From Acanthamoeba lenticulata (Eukaryota > Discosea > Longamoebia > Acanthamoebidae), in assembly GCA_002179805.1 (NCBI GenBank), contig NAVB01000302.1, positions 62,001 through 126,000 on the forward strand: a stretch of 64,000 bases of DNA. Direction: 5' to 3'. Position numbers and translations under genes: made by a program. Below are positions 1,422 to 13,137 of this stretch, piece after piece. Under the pieces are notes generated by a model. That model saw only the letters and a list, made by a program, of their open reading frames with translations, was not told where the DNA came from and did not search any database. Within the stretch, counting starts at the first letter, position 1. Each line of letters begins with the position of its first letter.

Positions 1422-4371
1422 ATGAGCGCTGAACCCCCTTTTGCTGCTGTCACCACACGTCCTCGTCTCTCACAGCTGCCTGGGTCGAGCATCACCCTGA
1501 CCGAAGACGAGAAGAAAATCTTTGACTACCTGCTCGATGTCGTCAAGTTCCACTACCTCAACTCGGAGCTGCGCGTCGCCGGCGGTTGGGTGCGCGACAA
1601 GGTGCGTGCTCGTGCTGTGGTTCACACGCTGATCTCGCGTGCGCCCCGTCTGGCCGCGCCGCTGATCGTCTGCTTGTGTGTCCGGATGGGTCGCGGTGCG
1701 CACGATATCCACAGCTCCGGGCAGCACGAGGCGTGCAGATCGAGACAACACCGGACATCGACATCGCCCTCAACAACATGATGGGCCAGATGTTTGGCAA
1801 CTACGTCAAGCGATACAACGACCACCACCAGCTGCCCGCCTCCAACATCGGTCTCGAAAGCGTCCCTCTATCTCTCCTTTTTTTTTCTTTCTTTTTTTTC
1901 CTTCTCCTCCACAGCTGGCAATGTCCGGGCCTGTTCTCATGCTGGCCAGGTCCGTGGACGGTGGAGCAGGGATCGTGCGATACAACCCCCACAAGTCGAA
2001 GCACCTGGAAACGGCGACAACGCGCATCTATGGCTACGACGTGGACTTTGTCAATCTGCGCACGGAGGCCTATCGGCCCAACAGCCGTATCCCGACCTTT
2101 GTGGTGCGACCGTCATCTTCTTCCACACCCAACGCGCGTCACAAACACCTGCAACGTCTCTAGAAACGAGGGGCACGATGTGATGTTGTTCTCATAATTG
2201 TTGTTGTTGTTGGGCGCTTAATGCAGGGGCTGGGCAGCCCGGAGCAGGACACCCGCCGGCGCGACTTCACGGTCAACGCGCTCTATTACAACATCAAGGA
2301 GCAGCGGATCGAGGACTACACGGGACTCGTACGACAGCCCGCTCTCGGCGCGTCCAACCCCGACTAACGCCACCACCCATGGCTTCGCGCGCACGCACAG
2401 GGTATTGAGGACCTTGAAGCCGGCCTCCTGCGCACGCCAGACGAACCACTCACCACCCTGCTTGAGGATCCCTTACGGTGCCGTTTTATTAATTTCTTTA
2501 TTTAATGGTTTTATATGTTGTAATTTATTTGTATATTTTAAGGCCAATTTCATGATTATTTTGGGGCCGAGCGCAGAGCACTGCGGGGCGTGCGATTCAA
2601 GGCTGCGCTCTCGTTTCGGTTCGATCCTGAGCTCCATGCGGCCATGCAAAGACCTGAAGTCAAGGTGCGCTGAGGAGGACGTGGGCGCGCACTGCAATAG
2701 AACGAAAACTGAAGCCCATGGCAAATGGTGCAGGAGGCGCTGCTGGAGAAGGTCTCCCGAGCGCGGATCGGGAGCGAGCTCAACAAGATCCTGAGCCTCG
2801 ACCCGTCCAAAGTGATAGTCGCCTTCGAGCAAGTCGCGTCACTCGGGCTGCAGGACGCCATCTTCCCCCTTCCACCCTTCACGCCGGCCGACGTCGACGT
2901 CGACACCACCACCACCAACAACAACGGCGAGACGGGCGGCGACAGCGTGCAACGGGCGGCGGGCCGAGTCGTCCTTCAGGACGCGCTGGGCGTGCGGGTT
3001 GCCGCCAGATCCTGGCCGGACGGCCTCACACAACAGGCCCTGCGCTGCACGCGCGCGCTCTTTGAGCAGGCCCCGCCCGATGCGCCCGCGCTCGTCGGCC
3101 GCACCGCGCTCGGCCTGTTGAGCCTGCCCCAGGGCAGCAGCCTGGCGCTGCTGACGGCCTTCCTGCTTCCCGCGCTGGTCCACCGCGACGTGGTGCGCCC
3201 CATGCTCCTTGGGCTCACTCCCCGCGGACATCTCACCTTTGTCGTCCTCTCGTGGCGGCGCAGCTTCAAGCCACCATCGAATCCACCAAGGCCCACCAAG
3301 TCGGGGACGACGACACGCAGGCGATCGACGCCGATCAGGCCAACCGCCAGGAGTTGGCCCGCGCCGAGCTGTCGCAAGCCCGGGATGTCGCCGAGCTTCT
3401 CCTGAAGCACTCCCTCGCGGTGCGCGCCGCGGCCCTTGGTTGAGTGGAGTGTCAATGTCCCGTCGTGTGGCGCACGAGGATTCACACACACACACACACA
3501 AAACATGCAGTTGTCAAACGACCATGTGCGATGCGTGACGAATCTGGTGCGGGCCATGGTGAACCTCCTGCCCCTCATCAAGGACGTGGAGGCCGATCTG
3601 GAGTCGTCCTCGGCTCAGGGCACCGACGCGCTGCTCTCGCTCCTCCACGCCAAGCGCGTGGAGCTGGGCAACTGGATGCGCAGCGTTGATCGGTACGTCG
3701 CCGTCGACGGCTTGTTGAGAGGCTCATCGCTGGCTGACGCGCTCCCCTCCTACGGACTTTTATGAGCAGAACGACGGGCGATCACATGTGGGAGTGGGCC
3801 GTGCGTTTGGCCTTTGTGGCCCGCGCCCACCTGCTCGATCAGCCTGGTGGCCGCCTGTCCGATGGTATGGCCCCTCTTCGCCAGAGGGGCTCGAGCACCT
3901 GTGGTGGGGTAAGTGGGAACTCACGCGTGTTCTTCCTCGTCGTGGTCATGGGGCAGGCAACGAGTTCGTGCGGGCCTTCCACGAAGCGGGCCTCGTGACG
4001 CTAAGCGACGTCTCACCTCTGCTGTCGGTGCGATAGCCATTAACTTATGGCCCACCAGATCTCCACCTAACTCGCCTTCTTCCTCTTCTTCTTTGTCGTC
4101 GTTTGCAGGGCAAAGAGATCATGCAGCTCCTCCAGGTCAGGGCCGGGCCCCTCGTTGGTATGTCGTCGTTGGCCAACAACCTCACTCAGTCTTTTCGCCT
4201 CACCCGAGTTGTTTTTGTGGATTGGTGGTGGCCTCCCCAGGGGAGGTCAAGGCCAGGTTGGTGTCGTGGCAGCTGGCCCAGGGCGGTCGGGCGACGAAGG
4301 AGGACGCCGAAGCGTTCGTGTCCCGCCTCGCCAAGGAGATTGGCCACGAAACGAGTCAATTCACGCAATAA
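1422..4371 (+). CDS. CCA tRNA nucleotidyltransferase
   Basis: Class II poly(A) polymerase-like enzyme that adds or repairs the 3' CCA of tRNAs. Motifs appear in family order over spliced exons. Exon 1 (1422-1601) has LRVAGGWVRDK. Exon 2 (1739-1861) has the catalytic D-I-D-I-A (metal-binding DxD). Exon 3 (from 1915) has the KSKHLETATTRIYG and DFVNLR segment. Exon 4 (2227-2328) has EQD-RRRDFTVNALYYNI. Exon 5 (2401-2477) has the DLEAGLLRTP region, continued in exon 6 (2577-2664) by the ALRGVRF helix. Exon 7 (from 2734) has the KVSRARIGSELNK helix. At least five short exons follow, and the last ends at TAA 4371. The segment 2880-2950 is a Thr/Asn/Asp-rich insertion. Splice sites after 3190 are less certain. 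Eukaryotic CCA enzymes serve nucleus, cytosol and mitochondria, often through alternative starts. Confidence 0.9.
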
Positions 4372-4462
4372 AAGAAACACAAAAACTTGCCAAACAACAA
4401 CAGTAACGTGAAGACTGAAGAGCAAGAGACGGAACCTCTCGCTTGCTTGTTTTGTTTCTTTC

Positions 4463-5955
4463 TTAATCTCGTCCTCCTCGGAAGCCTCCACGACCACCAC
4501 GACCCCCGCGGCCACCACCACGGCCACCACCACGGCCACCGCGGAAGCCACCACCACGGCCACCACCTCGTCCACCACGGCCGCCGCCTCGCCCACCGCC
4601 TCGTCCACCGCCTCCACGGCCACCGCGGAAGCCTCCCCTCCCGCCACGGAAGCCTCCTCTGCCGCCGCCTTCGTAGCCACCACCTTCAGCATTGCTCATG
4701 CTCTGGGCATATTCTTCCTTCTCCTGCTTCTTCTGCGCCACCTTCACCTTGAAGTGCTTTTCCTACATGATTGGGAAATGGCATGCCCATGGTCAGCCGT
4801 CGTCCACTAGGAAGAGCAAGATGATGACGGGAGCAATGGGGAGAGGATGGTGCGCACCCTTTGCTTGTGGAGCCGGTCCCTCCGGGCCTGGATCTTCTCC
4901 TTTCGTGCAGCGCTGTTGCCGCCGCCTGGTGCACCACATGGTCGCGTGTCAGTCAGTCTGAGTTGGCCCTGGGATGGCGGCAATAGCAGACAAGGACGAG
5001 AGAGAAGCGAGAGAGATACCTCCGGCGGTGAGTTCCACGTTGATCTGTCGGCCATTCATGCTGGTGTGGTGCATCTTCAACGCTTTCTGGTGTCGTCGCT
5101 GGTGTGAGTGCTTTGGGGGAGAGCGAGTAAGTGAGAAAAAAAGGAGGGCTCACCTGTTGAGCTTGCTTATCCGCCAGCTCGAGGAACGCACAGCCGCGAG
5201 GCTCGTTCGTGTTCTTCTTCGTCAGTACCCGAACGTCCACAATGCTCTCTGCACAAGGCAAACGCGTCAAGAGGTGAATCACACAGGCCAAGGAGTCACT
5301 TCAAGAGAGTCTTGAGGAGGCGCACCTCCAACACAGCGGAAATGCTCCTGAATGGTCTCTTTGGTGGCTTCATACGACAAATTGCCTACGCAAGGAACCA
5401 GGGTTAGAGATTTTGTGTGAAAATCAATCGTGACAGAAATCAGTGGCAGATCGCACCCAAGAAGAGGATGTATCGCCGCTTAGGTTCTTCTTCCATATCG
5501 TCAGCCTCTTCGCCTCCATCGGCCTCTTCGTCCTCATTTTTCTTCTCGGTGGCTGCTTCTGTGTCAACCTTTTGGCGCTTGGCGTTCTTCTTTTTCTTCT
5601 TGTCCTCCGTTTCGGCCTCATCCTCCTCCTCCTCGCTCAAAGCCACCAGCTTCGCTTCGCCATCTTCATCTACGATGAACTCCTTAATTTCTTCTTGACC
5701 ATCATCGGCAGGCTCCGCGGCAGTGTCCTTCACCTCAGCCTTAGCTGGTTTCTCTTTCTTCTCCACCCTCTTCCTCTTCTTCGTCTTACTCTTAGCCTTA
5801 GCACTGCCATCAGCTCCGGCATCAACCGCCGGAGCGGCAGACGGCGCAACTTGCTCCTTCTTGTGTTTGCCCTTGCCCTTTGGCTTGGCCGGCGGCTTCG
5901 CCGTCGTGGTGTACGGCGCCAGCGAGATGAAGTCCTCTCCGCCTGTCGAAGACAT
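4463..5955 (-). CDS. Nop6-like RRM/RGG-box RNA-binding protein
   Basis: The protein starts at ATG 5955 with about 155 residues of Lys/Glu-rich, acidic low-complexity sequence typical of nucleolar proteins. One RRM split over several exons follows. RNP2 (YILFLG) ends exon 1 near 5457, a short exon near 5338-5385 gives NLSYEATKETIQEHF, and RNP1 appears as RGCAFLEL near 5165-5200. The strand after the RRM reads INVELTAGGGG followed by N-S-A-A-R-K-E-K-I, which I recall as characteristic of fungal Nop6-type 40S biogenesis factors. The C-terminus (4463-4690) is a long run of RGG and FRGG repeats, likely arginine-methylated. A role in small-subunit ribosome biogenesis is inferred. The frame stays open upstream to about 6149, so the true start may lie at 6340 through one more intron. 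Confidence 0.75.
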
Positions 5956-6148
5956 GTGTGCTGCGTGCGTTGGGCGGGAAGATCGAAAAGCGGAAGAGGT
6001 ACAGACAAGACGTCTGTTTCCGCTGCTTTTCTTGTCGGCCTTGTGCTCGCTCGCTGGCGTGCGCCGCGCACTGAAGTGTTGGAGGTCGGCGCCTCCGTAG
6101 TAGAGGCCCTTGGCCTGCTCTGTGTAGGCGGTGACCAGCTCCTCGAAC

Positions 6149-6340
6149 GCTGCGTGTGTGTGGCCACACGACTAAACACAATCCAAACCAAAAGGTCCTT
6201 TCGAGTAAAGAGATTACTTACTGATTGCACAACAACACTAGGATGAAATTGCGGGGGTTTTATGATGCATGGGTCCGCTTACAAGAGTGGGGAGGACGGA
6301 ACGCAGATATGAAAGGGGCCTCTGGAAATCCTTCCTCCAT
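6149..6340 (-). other. Possible 5' exon(s) of the Nop6-like gene
   Basis: A frame contiguous with the start of the RRM/RGG gene extends upstream without stop to about 6149. It has protein-like sequence (FEELVTAYTEQAKGLYYGG) preceded by a good acceptor. An ATG at 6340 opens a 58-nt exon (6340-6283) ending in gtaagc, which joins in phase to this segment. The ATG would lie only 24 bp after the ATP synthase epsilon stop, so I keep it as an alternative N-terminus. Confidence 0.35.
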
Positions 6341-6363
6341 GGTGGGACGTTGAGAGCTACATC

Positions 6364-6573
6364 TTAATGGGACTGGCCAACAAGGTCGGAAGCTTTCTTC
6401 AAGTCAGTCTTGTCCTGGCCCTTGCCCGCAATCCATTGCTCGACCTTCATGTTGACGCTATCCCTCTCGGCAGCCTTGACGCGGAAAGGCTCCTTGAGCG
6501 CCCTGCGAGTAAGAATAGCGCAAGTGTTCGAGTAGCGCAGGTACGAGAAGCCAGCAGATCTCCACGACGACAT
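6364..6573 (-). CDS. Mitochondrial F1-ATP synthase epsilon subunit
   Basis: A single-exon, 69-residue protein. The N-terminus W-R-S-A-G-F-S-Y-L-R-Y-S-N-T-C is the hallmark of the eukaryotic epsilon subunit (ATP15/ATP5F1E type), followed by RALKEPFRVKAAERDSV. Family members are about 50-75 residues, so this one is full length. It would sit in the central stalk of F1 in the mitochondrial matrix. The protein is imported without a cleaved presequence in other eukaryotes, consistent with the direct start here. The gene lies head-to-head with the PAS gene (382 bp between start codons) and just upstream of the Nop6-like gene on the same strand. Confidence 0.93.
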   Translation of the reverse strand: MSSWRSAGFSYLRYSNTCAILTRRALKEPFRVKAAERDSVNMKVEQWIAGKGQDKTDLKKASDLVGQSH

Positions 6574-6955
6574 GTTTACTGATTGATTGCTTGGTCTGAA
6601 TCAATTCGGTTCGATTCTCTGGCGCGACAGCGAAAACGTAGGTTTTTTGCTCTGGCCACCAAAACTCAATCGTCCGCTGTCTGCCGGATTTTGAGGGCAA
6701 ATCCTTGTCCAAGGTAACCACGAAAAACCGTCAGTCGCCAAGAAACTGATCTAAGTGACATGCATCCTTATTGGTGCAGCTGTGCGAGTTTGTCGGCAAA
6801 TCTCAGCCATAGTTCACAGCTTTGCAACGCCAACTTTTTAAACGTGCAACCGTGCAGCTTTGGTCCTGTAACTTCCTGACCACAGCGAACCCCAAGTGCT
6901 TGCTCCTACGCCTCTCCTCTCTCTCTCTCTCTCTCTCTTCATCTGCTCAAGCAAA
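6574..6955. promoter_or_regulatory. Divergent intergenic region with CT microsatellite
   Basis: Shared upstream region of the ATP synthase epsilon gene (-) and the SAM-PB1-PAS gene (+). A pure CT tract at 6916-6938 lies 17 bp before the PAS-gene ATG, within its likely 5' untranslated region. I see no recognisable TATA box. Confidence 0.45.
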
Positions 6956-9365
6956 ATGAAGGCCATACGCAGTAGCAAGAAGGACAAGAGCGGAGCTAGC
7001 TCCGGTAAAACGAGCGTACCCAAGCGGTGGTCCGGCCAGTTCTCCAACGTGTCGACCAACAGTGACGGCGGTACGCCACTTACGCTCGATGGCCTCCTCG
7101 AACACGAGCGTGCCATGGAGGCCTCCAAATGTACAACGGCCTACGGCCTGGCCCGGCTCAAGCGGACTGACCCGTCGGAGTGGACCGTGGCCGACGTCGG
7201 CGTCTGGCTCGACTGGCTCTGCTTGAGCGAGTATCGAGCCGAGTTCATGAAGAACGCAGTCTCTGGTGCCGAGTTGAAGGAGCTGGACAACGCTGACTTT
7301 GTCTCCTTGGGCATCAACAAGGTAAGTGTCTTCAGCGGAGTGGCTCAAGAGGACTCCGCGAAAGGCCCGTTAATGCTAATGACCAAACGCGTACGCCTGC
7401 AGGTGGGCCACCGCAAGAAGCTCGAGAGACGCATCAAAATGCTGCAGCACGGGCTCGACCCGATGGCCGACGATGACGACGACGGCTCCTCGTCCCAATC
7501 GTCTCATTCTTCCATGCACTCGTCTCATTCCACCTCGACCTCCCAAAAGGTGCTCCACGCCACCCCCGTTGTCCTTCCTTCTTGTCATTGGCGGGGCGAC
7601 CTGACCTCGTGTGCCGTGTGCCCACAAACCACAGTCGAGCGCTAGCGCGGTCTCCGAGAACTACCAGTCCAAGATGAAGAAGGACAAGGTTCGCCCCCGC
7701 AGTCAGGCCAAAGCGTCTTGACCGGTTAAACTCACGTGAGAGCGGTTGGTGGTGATTGCGTAGATCACGCTTAAGTGCGTGTTCAAAGACGACATCTCGC
7801 TGGTGCATGTGTCGCCCATGCTTGAATTCAGCGAGCTGGCCAAGAAGATCAAGAAGGAGTACGGCCGCATGATGGAGATCAAGTACAAGGACGCCGAGGG
7901 CGACATGATCCGCGTCAAGAGCACAAAGGGCATCCGCAGCGCCATCAAGAGTTGGTCCGGCGAAGGTACTCGTGTTTTTATATATAAGCTCGATTTCTCC
8001 GTTACGTGTCTCTGACGTCCTCCACGCCAATGCAGGATCATTGAAGCTTCAACTGTCGGAGAAGAAGAAAAAGGTAACGAAGCGCAATACCGACATCATG
8101 GACACGATGCTCGACGCCGTGATCACGATCGACCATAAGGGCAAGATCCTGGTGTTCAACAAGAAGGCCGAGGAGATCTTCGGCTACCGGAAGAAGCAGG
8201 TTCTCAAGAAGAACGTCAACATGCTCATGCCGCCGGACGTGAGTCGCGAGCACAACAGCTACCTCAAGGCCTATATGCGCACCAAGAAGAAACACATCAT
8301 CGGAATCGGGCGCGAGGTCACCGCGCGCCATGCCGACGGCCACGACTTCCCGATCCACCTGTCCATCAGCGAGAGCAAGACCAGCGAGGACAGCCTCTTC
8401 ACCGCCACCATCCGCAAGATCGACGCGACGCTCGAGAAGGCCTTCCCCGCCGCATCGGCTGCGGTTCCGTCGACCACGGCTTCCTCGTCGCCCGACGCGG
8501 CCCTGTTCGGCCTGCTAGACTCGCTGCTCGACGCCACGGTGGTGATCAATCAAGATGGCATCATCCAGTTCTGGAACAAAGCCGCCTCGGAGAGGCTCGG
8601 GTGGAGCAAGGAGGAGATCGTGGGCAAAAACATCAAGCTCTGCATGCCGACTTCCATTAGCGGTACGCCTGCGTCGCTTTCACTCTTTTGTGCTGTTCGT
8701 TTTCGCTTTTTTACTCATGCTCATGGTGGCGCGTTTTTCACAACAGAGAAGCACGACGCGTATATCCAGCGATACCTGGCCACGGGCGAGGGCAAGGTCG
8801 TCGGCATTGGGCGCAACGTGGTGGCGCAGAAGAAGAACGGCGAGATCGTGCCGGTGCACCTCTCTCTTACCGAGCAACAGATCGGACCCGACCGGCGCTA
8901 CTTCACTGGCGTCATGCGAGCGGTCGAGGAGGAGCTCGAGATGAAGAAGACCGTGCTTCAGCAGGAGCGGGAGGTCATGGACGGCCTCGCCGTGCCCGCC
9001 ATGATCGTGGACGAAACGGGCAAGATCCACGGCTTCAACTCGGCGATGACCAACCTCGTCGGCTTTAGCTTGATCGACGTGATTGGCCGCAACATCTCCG
9101 TCATGCTCCCGGCCGACGTGGCCAAGTGCGTTCTGCTTTCTCATCATGTCCTCCTCTTGCGCGAGTTCTAATGCACAACATGTGCAGGGAGTACGACCAC
9201 TTGATCCAGACCTACTTCAAGTCTGGCGAGCTGCAGACGTTGAAGTCGGGCCGAGATCTGCTGACGCTCCACAAGGACGGCTCCATGGTCCCCGTCCACG
9301 TGAGTATCAACGCCAAGAAGGACGGCTTGAAGACCATCTTCACCATCATCTGCCAGAAACTGTAA
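6956..9365 (+). CDS. SAM-PB1-PAS-PAS-PAS protein with FixL-type haem-PAS signatures
   Basis: Seven exons (6956-7321, 7403-7549, 7635-7688, 7764-7965, 8036-8662, 8747-9125, 9188-9365) join in phase to give 650 residues. In order: a basic N-terminus; a SAM domain (about 72-138; VGVWLDWLCLSEY, then FVSLGIN); a Ser/His-rich linker; a PB1 domain (about 190-262) with an N-terminal Lys and an acidic OPCA-like D-x-E-G-D-x-I motif; then three PAS domains (about 270-385, 405-525, 530-650). PAS1 and PAS2 contain H-x-x-Y and, exactly 20 residues after the His, the Arg of GIGR (codons 8251/8311 and 8752/8812). This matches the proximal haem His and distal Arg spacing of rhizobial FixL. PAS3 has Tyr at the His position. 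No kinase, cyclase or other output domain follows. Haem binding and O2/NO/CO sensing are inferred; SAM and PB1 suggest a scaffold output. Confidence 0.88.
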
Positions 9366-9559
9366 CCATAACCAGAACCAGCACAGGCAAGTGGTCCCGT
9401 GCCTTTCCTCAGCAACAGCAGCAGCACGACCAGCCATCACCGAATCTACTCTCCATTCAGCAAAACATCATCAATTCTTCGTTTCGCTGTGCTCCCGTCT
9501 ATGACAGCTATTGTACAGTTTGTGTAACAAAATCATTCCGCTACTTGCACGTTGGCTCA

Positions 9560-11016
9560 TCAGTTCGTTGTTGTTGGCGTGATGCCGGGCGATGACAACG
9601 TCTTTGAAGAAGGAGGCAACGCAAACAGAACAAGGTTCTTGCCTTCAAAGTCGAGCGTCGCCGTCTGGATTCGGTCGGGCGCCTTTGCCACGAGGTAGGC
9701 CACGAACTGCTGGTACGTGGTCACGGGCGACCCGTTCATGCGTCGTCGCGGGAAGAGCTTGTGGTAGACACAACACGGCACGATCGCGAACCCTTTGTTC
9801 CTGTGGCCCCGCCACACCATCGTGCGTCAGATATTCCAGTCCACAGAGCTCGCGAGCCAGGCATGCACAACGTACCACTTCAGTGCAAAGTCCACGATGG
9901 CCTCTGTGGCCTGGTCCGGGTGGAGGCCCACGATGAGGGAGCACTCCATGAGCAGCCGCTGGACGGCTGGCCACTCCACGATGCCCGCGTCGTCCTTGGA
10001 CTCGGAACCTCTTCGTTCCGCCTCCTCGTCTCCATTCTCTTCAGGATCCTCAAGGTCTTGGCTCTTGGGCGGTTGTGCTTCTTCGTTTGGCTCAGAATCC
10101 TCTTGAGCCACGAGGCCCTTCTCCGTCCACGCAACGGCACGCGCGTGGGCCAACATCGCTTCAAAGCCCTTGGCCGCCTCCTGCGAAGGGTTCTTGGTTA
10201 GATCTGAAGAGAAATGTGGACAAGCCGCCAACGAACCTCTTCCTGGCCCTCCTGGTGGAGGACGAGCAGCTGCAGGAGTTGATCGTCAAAGAAGGTGCGC
10301 AAGTGGCCAGGCGTGCGAACGTCGGAGGGACTCGAGGGCGCGGGCAGGTGATTGTAGGCCTGCCACGGGCCCGTCCTGTGGTAGATGCCTACCAGCAGCC
10401 GTTTGCTGAAGCGGCCGAGCTGCAGCGGGCGCGGGTCGATCACCGTGGTGGGCACTCCCGTGAGGTTGGCCAGTTCGAAGGAGAGCTCGCCCTTGCCGCC
10501 AGCGATGTCCAGCACGCCCGTGCCGGAGCCCAGCAGCTCCCGGCCAAACGTGTCGGCCAGCCACCGCCTGCAAACAAGGCCCCCGTCGAGTCAGGCTCGA
10601 GGCTTGCAGTGAAGGGCAACGCGGGGCGAGGGTATTGAGGGTACCGGAAGGCACCGGCCTTGTTTCGGTTCATGATCTTGTTCCTCCGCCCCGCTCCTCT
10701 GTTCTGTTTCCGTTCATTGCTCAACCTGCGCCGCACACACGTGCACGTCAGAGCAAAGCTCAAGTGCACAGAAGGAGGGCGTGGGCACTTACTTGGTGAA
10801 GGCTTGGCGGCGGTCTTCCGCAAGCGTTGAGGCCGGGCAACCTCCGGTGGCCCCTTGCTGCTCATTCTCCTCTCCCTCCTTCTTGATCTCCTGTTGGCCG
10901 CTGGTGTCTGGCTGAGGATGTCGGAATCGGCACCGTTCCGCGTACAGACACCAACCCATACGTTTCCAGTGTCGGCACACAGGCACTTCTTTCTCGACAA
11001 CTGCTTCTGCCTCCAT
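9560..11016 (-). CDS. CCCH zinc-finger / SAM-dependent methyltransferase-like protein
   Basis: Exon 1 (11016-10793) encodes a CCCH finger (C-x8-C-x5-C-x3-H, residues about 14-34) in a Glu/Gln-rich context. Exon 2 starts at 10567 and gives a Rossmann methyltransferase start, G-V-L-D-I-A-G-G-K-G-E-L-S-F-E-L, then VIDPRPL. A later exon (about 10200-9890) has an acidic insert and GLHPDQATEAIVDFAL. The last exon (about 9810-9560) has AIVPCCVYHKLFPRR. The D-x-A-G-G-K-G motif I and the VPCC block indicate an intact SAM-binding fold. The substrate is unknown; the CCCH finger suggests RNA. The exon 2/3 junction near 10210-10230 is uncertain, since only very short introns keep the frame there. The gene is head-to-head with the MORN gene, 95 bp apart. 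Confidence 0.75.
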
Positions 11017-11111
11017 CTTCTTTGGTTTTTTTTAGAAATGAATTTAAGAAATGAATTTAAAATAGAAAAAGTATTTCCTTTTGCTTCTCATTCTTTTGTG
11101 CAATCGGCAAG
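11017..11111. promoter_or_regulatory. 95-bp bidirectional promoter
   Basis: Only 95 bp separate the start codons of the CCCH/methyltransferase gene (-) and the MORN gene (+). The AT-rich core has a tandem direct repeat, GAAATGAATTTAA twice in 11036-11062, in an otherwise GC-rich neighbourhood, and is the likely shared core promoter. Confidence 0.5.
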
Positions 11112-13137
11112 ATGAGGTCCAGCATCACCGCAGGCTCCATTAGATCTGCTTCTTCACGTGTTGTTGTTGATGTCTCGCGAAGTCTTGTGCACCGTTGCAA
11201 GACCTCTGCCTTCGGACAGCCTCTTCTTTCCGGCAATCGTTTGACGTCATCTCCGCAATGTGTGCTGCTCCGCCGCCCGGCGACCCAGGGGCTCGTAATC
11301 CCTCCGCTGCCTTCCGTTCACATTGTCCGTCTTCCAGCTCACGCTTGCCCCTCTCTTGCGGCAGCCTTGGCGTGGGCTTGGGCACCTGCTGCTGTGCAGG
11401 GCGCTAGCCACGAAGGTGCCGCCCTCTCCCGATGAACAGGCTTCCTCGAGCAAGCCCAAGAAGGTCAACATCAGTACGTGCAACCGCCAGTTCTGCTTCA
11501 GTTCAGTTTATGCAAGTCGAGTGCGCACGCCAACGCACGTCGTGCAGACACGGACGAAATGTTCGGAGCGGCGGAAGCGGTCAACGAGCACTGGATTCGG
11601 ATGACCATCAACGACGACTGGGAACGCGATCCTGACGGACCGCAGGTGTCCCGGCCGGCCGACATCTACTTTGCCAAGTCCGTTCTCCGCACTCTTTTGT
11701 TGATCGTTCTGGTGCCAGCTCTTCTCACCCTTGTGCGTCGCCGTCATCGTACAGGTTCCTCGGCAAGCTCGACGAGCAAGGCATGCCTATTGGACGAGGT
11801 ACCAACAAGCTCCGCTGCGGTCGGTCCCTCGGTCAAACCGTCTCACTCTTGCCAAACGCGACTTGGCAGGCAAGTTGTATTCGCAGGACAACGACGAGGG
11901 CGTTTCATTCTATTACCACGGCGACTTCAAGAACGGCAAGTACCACGGCAAAGGCCGTTCGGTGAGCATCGAGCACGCGGATTTGAACAAGGCGCAGAGG
12001 GCCCTGCTCCCCAAGAACGTGTATCAGTGGACAGGCAAGCAGCGCCCCTCCTCATCCTCTTCACCACTATCATCATCACTCACAAGCCCAATTGTGTTTG
12101 TGGTTCGATTCAGGCAAGGAGAAGCTGTTGCCGCTCGGCACCGTGTACGAGGGCGACTGGGAGGAGGGTAAGATGCACGGCCAGGGACGCCTTACGGAAT
12201 CCCTCAAGGGCGACGTCTACGAGGGCGACTTTGTTCAGGTGCGCAAGCAAATTGGCTTGCTGCTCTCCACAGCTCCTTCTCACTCTCTCTCTCTCTCTCT
12301 CTCGAATATTATCTCACATGAGTGAACAAACTGGTGGTCGGTTCTGGCTACCTCACGTGCCTTGGCCGCTCACTAGGGACGCAGGACCGGCAAGGGCAAG
12401 ATGATCTCCAAAAACGGCCATTACCTTTACGTGGGCGAGTTTGACGACGGGTTCGTACGCCCTTGTGTCAGACTTGATTTGCGGATTCAGATCGAGCTCG
12501 TTCTCATATTTCTCTTCCTCCGCCACGTTGATGGCGACGACACCAACATCGACAGGATCTATCAGGGCAAGGGCACGCTTCGATCCAAGGATGGTGACGT
12601 CTTCGAGGGCGAGTTCGAGCGAGGGATGATGCGACATGGCAAGGGCAAGCTCACGCTGGAAGACGGCTACATCTACGAGGGCGGGCTCTACGACGGCGCC
12701 CCCAGCGGCTACGGCAAGCAGTATCATCCTGGTACCTCCTTGCAGAAGCATCCTTGCCCATCCCCAAGGTCTGATCGCAGTCTATCGTTTGGGGGGGGGG
12801 ATGCATTCTAGATACAGTTCAGAAGGGGGGTTACGAGGGCAACTGGGTTGATGGCGAGTACCGAGGCCAGGGTAAGCTCTTCCTCCCCGAAGGCGGTTTC
12901 ATTGAGGGCACGTTCGAGGGTGGAATGGTACGCCAGAGTTTTTGTTTTTGTTTTTGTTCTGTGCTGCTGACGCGACTGTGCCCCCCAAAGCTCGAGGGCG
13001 AGGCCATACACACAGACACTGACGGTAACCGTGAGACTATTGTCCTACGCCGAGGCGTAGTTCAAGAAGAAGAGGGAGACGAGGATGAGGAAGATGAGGA
13101 GGGTGAGGAAGAGAAGGGACCAACTCGGTCAGCGTGA
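11112..13137 (+). CDS. MORN-repeat protein
   Basis: The start is at ATG 11112. The first about 50 residues are rich in Arg, Ser and Val and poor in acids, resembling a mitochondrial presequence. One splice then changes frame to the exon beginning near 11400 (ALATKVPPSPDEQ), and the next exon begins at 11548 after the donor at 11474. Successive short exons encode at least six MORN repeats (Y-x-G-x-[FW]-x-x-G-x-x-x-G-x-G), for example YHGDFKNGKYHGKG, YEGDWEEGKMHGQG, FEGEFERGMMRHGKG, YEGGLYDGAPSGYG and YEGNWVDGEYRGQG. The C-terminus is acidic (Glu/Asp tracts, 13060-13125). MORN repeats form a lipid- or protein-binding beta scaffold at membranes. The presequence, the exact first donor and the localisation are inferred. 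Confidence 0.82.

Follow-up and report, generated by a model that had tools for sequence, protein, structure and literature searches.

The gene described here, from Acanthamoeba lenticulata, probably encodes a gas sensor of the FixL heme type, with O2 as its most likely ligand, which is built on a self-assembling SAM/PB1 scaffold and has no enzyme of its own. It lies in a stretch of 64,000 nucleotides, hereafter the window, corresponding to positions 62001-126000 of contig NAVB01000302.1 (C265 in our labelling) in a genome of 48.5 Mb and 1825 contigs. A profilin encoded in this genome closely resembles PDB entry 1f2k, 'profilin II' of Acanthamoeba, without being identical to it (E 3e-73). Analysis of the 650-residue sensor protein with Pfam identified a SAM domain (residues 74-136), a PB1 domain (residues 190-265) and three PAS domains. 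Sequence, predicted fold, pocket residues and conservation all speak strongly for PAS1 and PAS2 being FixL-type heme-PAS domains, and as domains they look like new members of that class with a putative heme. FixL-type PAS domains are already known in the genus; what is new is the presence of SAM and PB1 where FixL has its kinase, combined with conserved pockets. The coding features, numbered from the first nucleotide of the window, are as follows.

6956..9365, + strand: coding region of the sensor gene, stop codon included; 7 exons, 650 amino acids
6956-7321, 7403-7549, 7635-7688, 7764-7965, 8036-8662, 8747-9125 and 9188-9365, + strand: exons of the spliced gene model
7175..7444, + strand: SAM domain, Pfam SAM_1 E 1.8e-17; split by intron 7322-7402
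7764..8061, + strand: PB1 domain, Pfam PB1 E 2.6e-8; split by intron 7966-8035
8095..8406, + strand: PAS1, residues 277-380; His329 (codon 8251), Arg349 (8311), Ala335 at the FixL Arg206 position
8506..8925, + strand: PAS2, residues 414-525; His468 (8752), Arg474 at the FixL Arg206 position, Arg488 (8812); split by intron 8663-8746
8956..8976, + strand: LQQEREV, residues 536-542, leading into PAS3; common to 8/8 family proteins
8959..9359, + strand: PAS3, residues 537-649; Tyr594 (9192) in place of His, Arg614 (9252) kept; split by intron 9126-9187

FixL-type pockets of PAS1 and PAS2

A sequence-only reading of the window had reported a His-x-x-Tyr-x-x-x-Tyr motif followed by GIGR in two tandem PAS domains, and its codon positions and His-to-Arg spacing of 20 residues proved exact to the base. 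The motifs read HNSYLKAY...GIGR in PAS1 and HDAYIQRY...GIGR in PAS2, where the His codon sits in the exon after the intron. The Bradyrhizobium FixL (BjFixL) chain, HDSYISRY...GIGR, confirmed that the spacing and context are shared with that protein. The span given in that reading, 8038-8950, covered PAS1 and PAS2 and missed SAM, PB1 and PAS3, which are decisive for function.

His329/Arg349 and His468/Arg488 aligned with FixL His200/Arg220, placing a proximal His on helix F and a distal Arg at +20 in both domains. Of the FixL residues, His200 acts as the proximal ligand, Arg220 forms a hydrogen bond with the bound ligand, and Ile215, Leu236 and Ile238 line the distal pocket (PMC10765370; this and the other PMC articles are cited from those parts of their text that were available). 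The three hydrophobic positions are I, L and I in PAS1 and V, L and L in PAS2, a conservative change. In BjFixL numbering, obtained by counting from His200, the aligned residues were M192, H200, Y203, A206, Y207, H214, I215, I216, R220, V222, I234, L236, I238, F249 and A251 in PAS1, and M192, H200, Y203, R206, Y207, K214, V215, V216, R220, V222, V234, L236, L238, F249 and G251 in PAS2.

The resemblance extended well beyond the motif. Using phmmer against the PDB, both domains were closest to the FixL heme domain (PAS1, E 6.8e-25; PAS2, E 1.1e-26), with FixL and DosP chains at ranks 1-13 of 18 and 1-13 of 17, respectively. Since each PAS domain is FixL-like along its whole length, the motif is more than a chance occurrence. 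Structure prediction, which had been suggested as a check, agreed: the PAS1 model (m52b9cef788a9) had a pLDDT of 90.3, and heme-PAS proteins occupied rows 1-23 of 50 in the VIA list and rows 1-34 of 50 in the Foldseek list. The folds modelled for PAS1-3 of a relative, P0001, also fitted FixL-type heme-PAS. A Foldseek search with the whole P0001 model placed a PpsR chain at the top and returned LOV, AHR and HIF chains as well, mostly in multi-domain alignments with a large root mean square deviation.

The pocket residues were further compared with 255 bacterial PAS domains from homologues, a biased sample in that the proteins were chosen for their likeness to the query. The proximal position was His in 220, another residue in 26 and a gap in 9. 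Arg at +20 was found in 97% of the 220 His-bearing domains versus 23% of the 26 with another residue (a further 42% of these 26 had a gap there). A ten-position pocket signature was shared by PAS1, PAS2 and 195/220 of the bacterial His-bearing domains.

PAS1 and PAS2 differ at the signalling arginine of FixL, Arg206, which is replaced by Ala335 in the former and retained as Arg474 in the latter; its equivalent was present in 110/220 bacterial His-bearing domains. Among PDB sequences, PAS1 matched 2cmn best; this entry is entitled 'A Proximal Arginine Residue in the Switching Mechanism of the FixL Oxygen Sensor', and its sequence also has Ala at 206. The Arg206Ala change in BjFixL leads to much weaker inhibition of the kinase by O2, and Sinorhizobium FixL (SmFixL) R200A, the counterpart of the Ala in PAS1, binds heme, O2 and CO, yet autoxidises (PMC10765370).

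DosP, the oxygen-sensing phosphodiesterase of Escherichia coli, also has tandem PAS domains and gave the second-best sequence and structure matches. Its distal ligand is Met95, whereas PAS1 and PAS2 both have Ile there, making DosP-like Met ligation unlikely in the sensor protein. No EAL domain was found in the protein by Pfam. Lys occupies this position (His+18) in several related domains (PAS1 and PAS2 of the protein encoded on contig C639 of the same genome, PAS1 and PAS3 of P0004, and PAS3 of P0002 and of P0122) and in 6/220 bacterial His-bearing domains, and it could act as a distal ligand or pocket gate.

Conservation, origin and genomic setting

Seven further full-length SAM-PB1-PAS-PAS-PAS proteins were found (P0001-P0004, P0122, P0123 and P0124), of which P0001 showed 77% identity to the sensor protein at 100% query coverage in the homologue search. 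P0124 is from Balamuthia mandrillaris (Amoebozoa, Centramoebida). In its source, P0124 is labelled 'SH3 and multiple ankyrin repeat domains 3'; this is probably a misnomer prompted by its Shank-like SAM domain. Conservation was counted over the sensor protein and these seven relatives, with the fragment P0005 excluded. The proximal His and distal Arg were present in 8/8 proteins in both PAS1 and PAS2, at a family mean pairwise domain identity of 0.57-0.60. In PAS3, the Arg was kept in 8/8 and the His in 7/8, the sensor protein alone having lost it, and its PAS3 also lacked the ten-position signature. With I, L, V and M pooled, six of seven pocket positions were invariant in PAS1, compared with 45/109 in the whole domain (p 0.019), and six of seven compared with 51/109 in PAS2 (p 0.039). 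PAS3 showed no such excess (4/7 versus 42/109, p 0.26). These results lend modest support to a stronger constraint on the pocket positions of PAS1 and PAS2 than on the domains as a whole.

This conservation bears on two other explanations. The PAS domains might be heme-PAS by descent only, with some other small molecule as their present ligand, if they have one at all, and serve as dimerisation modules like PAS-A of human PAS kinase. In the FixL cluster, >9700 sequences (60%) keep the His; the remaining ca. 40% lack it and may sense something else, and human PASK PAS-A, which lost its His, binds other compounds (PMC10468136). The loss of His from PAS3 of the sensor protein itself fits this picture. 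However, His, Arg and the hydrophobic positions of PAS1 and PAS2 are kept in 8/8 proteins including that of Balamuthia, which would not be expected under free drift; we regard this explanation as unlikely. Alternatively, the domains might bind heme but respond physiologically to NO, CO, redox state or heme itself, and not to O2. The autoxidation of the SmFixL variant that matches Ala335 of PAS1 is in line with such a role, as are the H-NOX heme proteins of A. castellanii, which are thought to serve NO signalling (PMC4053784). The distal Arg, which hydrogen-bonds O2 in FixL, is nevertheless kept in 16/16 PAS1 and PAS2 domains, and a signal other than O2 appears improbable. A fatty-acid signal, for example from bacterial prey, might instead occupy the pocket, as in the PAS domain of RpfR; this is a weak proposal and can be given very little credence.

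Other loci in the genome resemble the sensor gene or its PAS domains. Contigs C639 and C284 encode more SAM-PB1-PAS proteins, and C1182 carries PAS fragments belonging to a gene close to its end. In PAS1-3 of C639 and PAS1 of C284, His and Arg lie 20 residues apart in one open frame each; in the other domains of C284 and C1182, they fall in separate frames or exons. Furthermore, C162, C353 and C323 (loci L013, L028 and L029) encode FixL-like, His-bearing PAS domains together with protein-kinase motifs, the kinase domain of C162 being confirmed by Pfam and those of C353 and C323 recognised by motif only. Judged from their sequences, the three are candidate heme-regulated kinases. They agree with the placement of A. 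castellanii PAS kinase PAS domains in the FixL/DosP heme cluster (PMC10468136). The PAS kinases share a FixL-like PAS with His but have their own Ser/Thr kinase domain, and their PAS domains are not firmly grouped with the SAM-PB1-PAS family.

A first tree, built from 85 rows, placed a single long bacterial row, P0011, within the PAS1 domains. A second tree, of low resolution (77 domains, 113 columns) and with the P0070 and P0011 rows removed beforehand, recovered the PAS2 domains of the family as one group (SH-aLRT 90) and the PAS3 domains as another (SH-aLRT 98), and its PAS1 group included one C162 kinase PAS domain. When the 28 family domains were held together, the log-likelihood was 12.1 above that of the free tree (p-AU 0.70). 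The simplest reading is that a single FixL-type domain tripled within the gene before Acanthamoeba and Balamuthia split. On general grounds, the PAS domain was likely acquired from bacteria, a point that the trees leave undecided.

Bacterial contamination, or a gene that is no longer functional, could be proposed because bacterial PAS histidine kinases are the nearest relatives outside the SAM-PB1-PAS family. This explanation was rejected as having a negligible chance of being correct. The gene contains six introns, all GT-AG and 62-85 bases long, as well as SAM and PB1 domains, and its relatives come from other sources, Balamuthia among them. Contig C1806 is colinear with window positions 2986-12624 at 97% and is most simply the other haplotype of the region. 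The two haplotypes differ by 24 synonymous and seven nonsynonymous changes in the sensor gene, giving a pS of 0.055 and a far lower pN of 0.0046, with no difference at the His and Arg codons; the gene is under purifying selection.

The sensor gene stands head to head with an intronless gene on the − strand (6364-6573) for a mitochondrial ATP synthase epsilon chain of 69 amino acids (Pfam PF04627, E 4e-19), the start codons being ca. 380 bases apart. Downstream, the segment 9827-10516 (−) matched no family in Pfam, and an intron-rich gene at ca. 11790-12980 (+) encodes a series of YEGxxxxGxxxGxG-like units, which look by eye like MORN repeats.

SAM and PB1 domains and the route to an output

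Shank SAM domains polymerise. The nearest PDB sequences to the SAM domain were those of Shank2 and Shank3 (E 6e-13), and by this likeness it looks like a candidate polymer-forming domain. The PB1 domain, a weak match to PKC zeta among solved structures (E 0.0074), contains Lys193 (codon 7773) and an acidic core, DAEGD, at residues 232-236 (7890-7904). This combination agrees with the definition of type AB, namely a Lys in beta-1 and a D-x-D/E-x-D/E core (DxExD here), for which head-to-tail binding is possible (PMC7051960). The sensor protein thus shares features with two kinds of assembly module, Shank SAM and aPKC/p62-type PB1. To our knowledge, such modules have not been reported as joined to heme sensors.

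PB1 proteins from protozoa that also have SAM or PAS domains are mentioned, mostly as single cases (PMC7051960), and the SAM-PB1-PAS architecture may therefore have been glimpsed before. The sequence-only reading had regarded a heme-based O2, NO or CO sensor as not known in the lineage. This is too wide for the domains, given the FixL/DosP-cluster PAS kinases and the H-NOX proteins of A. castellanii noted above; the new element is the SAM-PB1 architecture. No paper was recognised as dealing with the family in a literature search whose scope excluded most subscription journals and the supplements of PMC10468136 and PMC7051960. Searches with the SAM-PB1 part as sole query returned four proteins, and three when started from P0004, all with PAS domains; they require shared five-residue words and similar length, and other architectures may escape them.

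FixL of Bradyrhizobium and Sinorhizobium shares the proximal His, the distal Arg at +20, the hydrophobic distal positions and the predicted fold, but it is a histidine kinase, whereas the sensor protein has SAM and PB1, no kinase and two tandem candidate heme pockets (three in its relatives). Membership of the FixL protein family was rejected accordingly: Pfam found no kinase, and a profile search gave 258 bits for NCBIfam NF041777, a match below the FixL protein cut-off of 850. The protein ends after PAS3 and lacks the C-terminal Ser/Thr kinase domain of a PAS kinase. No kinase, cyclase or DNA-binding domain was found in it by Pfam, so that any signal would have to be passed on by partner proteins, such as the PAS kinases encoded in this genome. 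Aer2 of Vibrio cholerae, by its title a dual PAS-heme oxygen sensor, likewise has two heme-PAS domains in one protein, but it is a chemoreceptor, and its heme-PAS domains fall in a cluster that is unrelated and has its His at another position (PMC10468136). Eukaryotic FixL-like heme-PAS proteins have reportedly been described in the green alga Chlamydomonas, in work by Murthy from 2012; our literature search turned up nothing on them.

Proposed mechanism and biological meaning

From the architecture, pockets, predicted fold and conservation, we infer a heme, its ligand, and the assembly, signalling output and partners of the sensor protein as follows. PAS1 and PAS2 would each bind heme b through the proximal His329 and His468, and the distal Arg349 and Arg488 would hydrogen-bond bound O2. 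Ligand binding might move the heme edge and distal beta-sheet, as in FixL, and thereby change the packing of the PAS domains and the helical stretch leading into PAS3, where the P0001 model has a helix around LQQEREV. Such changes could in turn alter SAM and PB1 assembly or partner binding. PAS2, which keeps the FixL Arg206 residue, would be the likely main transducer. PAS1 may bind gas and couple weakly, and PAS3, having lost its His in this species, probably serves in dimerisation or as a relay. A more tentative extension is an O2-gated polymer with two hemes per subunit (three where the PAS3 His is kept), in which O2 would cooperatively drive the assembly or the breakdown of a signalling scaffold to which PAS kinases are recruited.

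Prolyl hydroxylases have been named as likely oxygen responders of A. castellanii, for which no HIF is reported, and the amoebae are said to survive microaerophilic conditions (PMC4053784, whose available main text contains no word starting with PAS). If the O2-gated polymer exists, Acanthamoeba and Balamuthia, whose lineage reportedly lacks HIF, would sense oxygen with bacterial-type sensor domains joined to assembly domains of eukaryotic type. The natural variants, namely the Ala at the Arg206 position, the loss of His from PAS3 and the Lys at the Met95 position in relatives, are ready tests of heme-PAS signalling. The conserved FixL-type family would offer a concrete, testable gas-sensor candidate in amoebae and would exemplify a bacterial-type heme sensor with eukaryotic assembly domains in place of a kinase.
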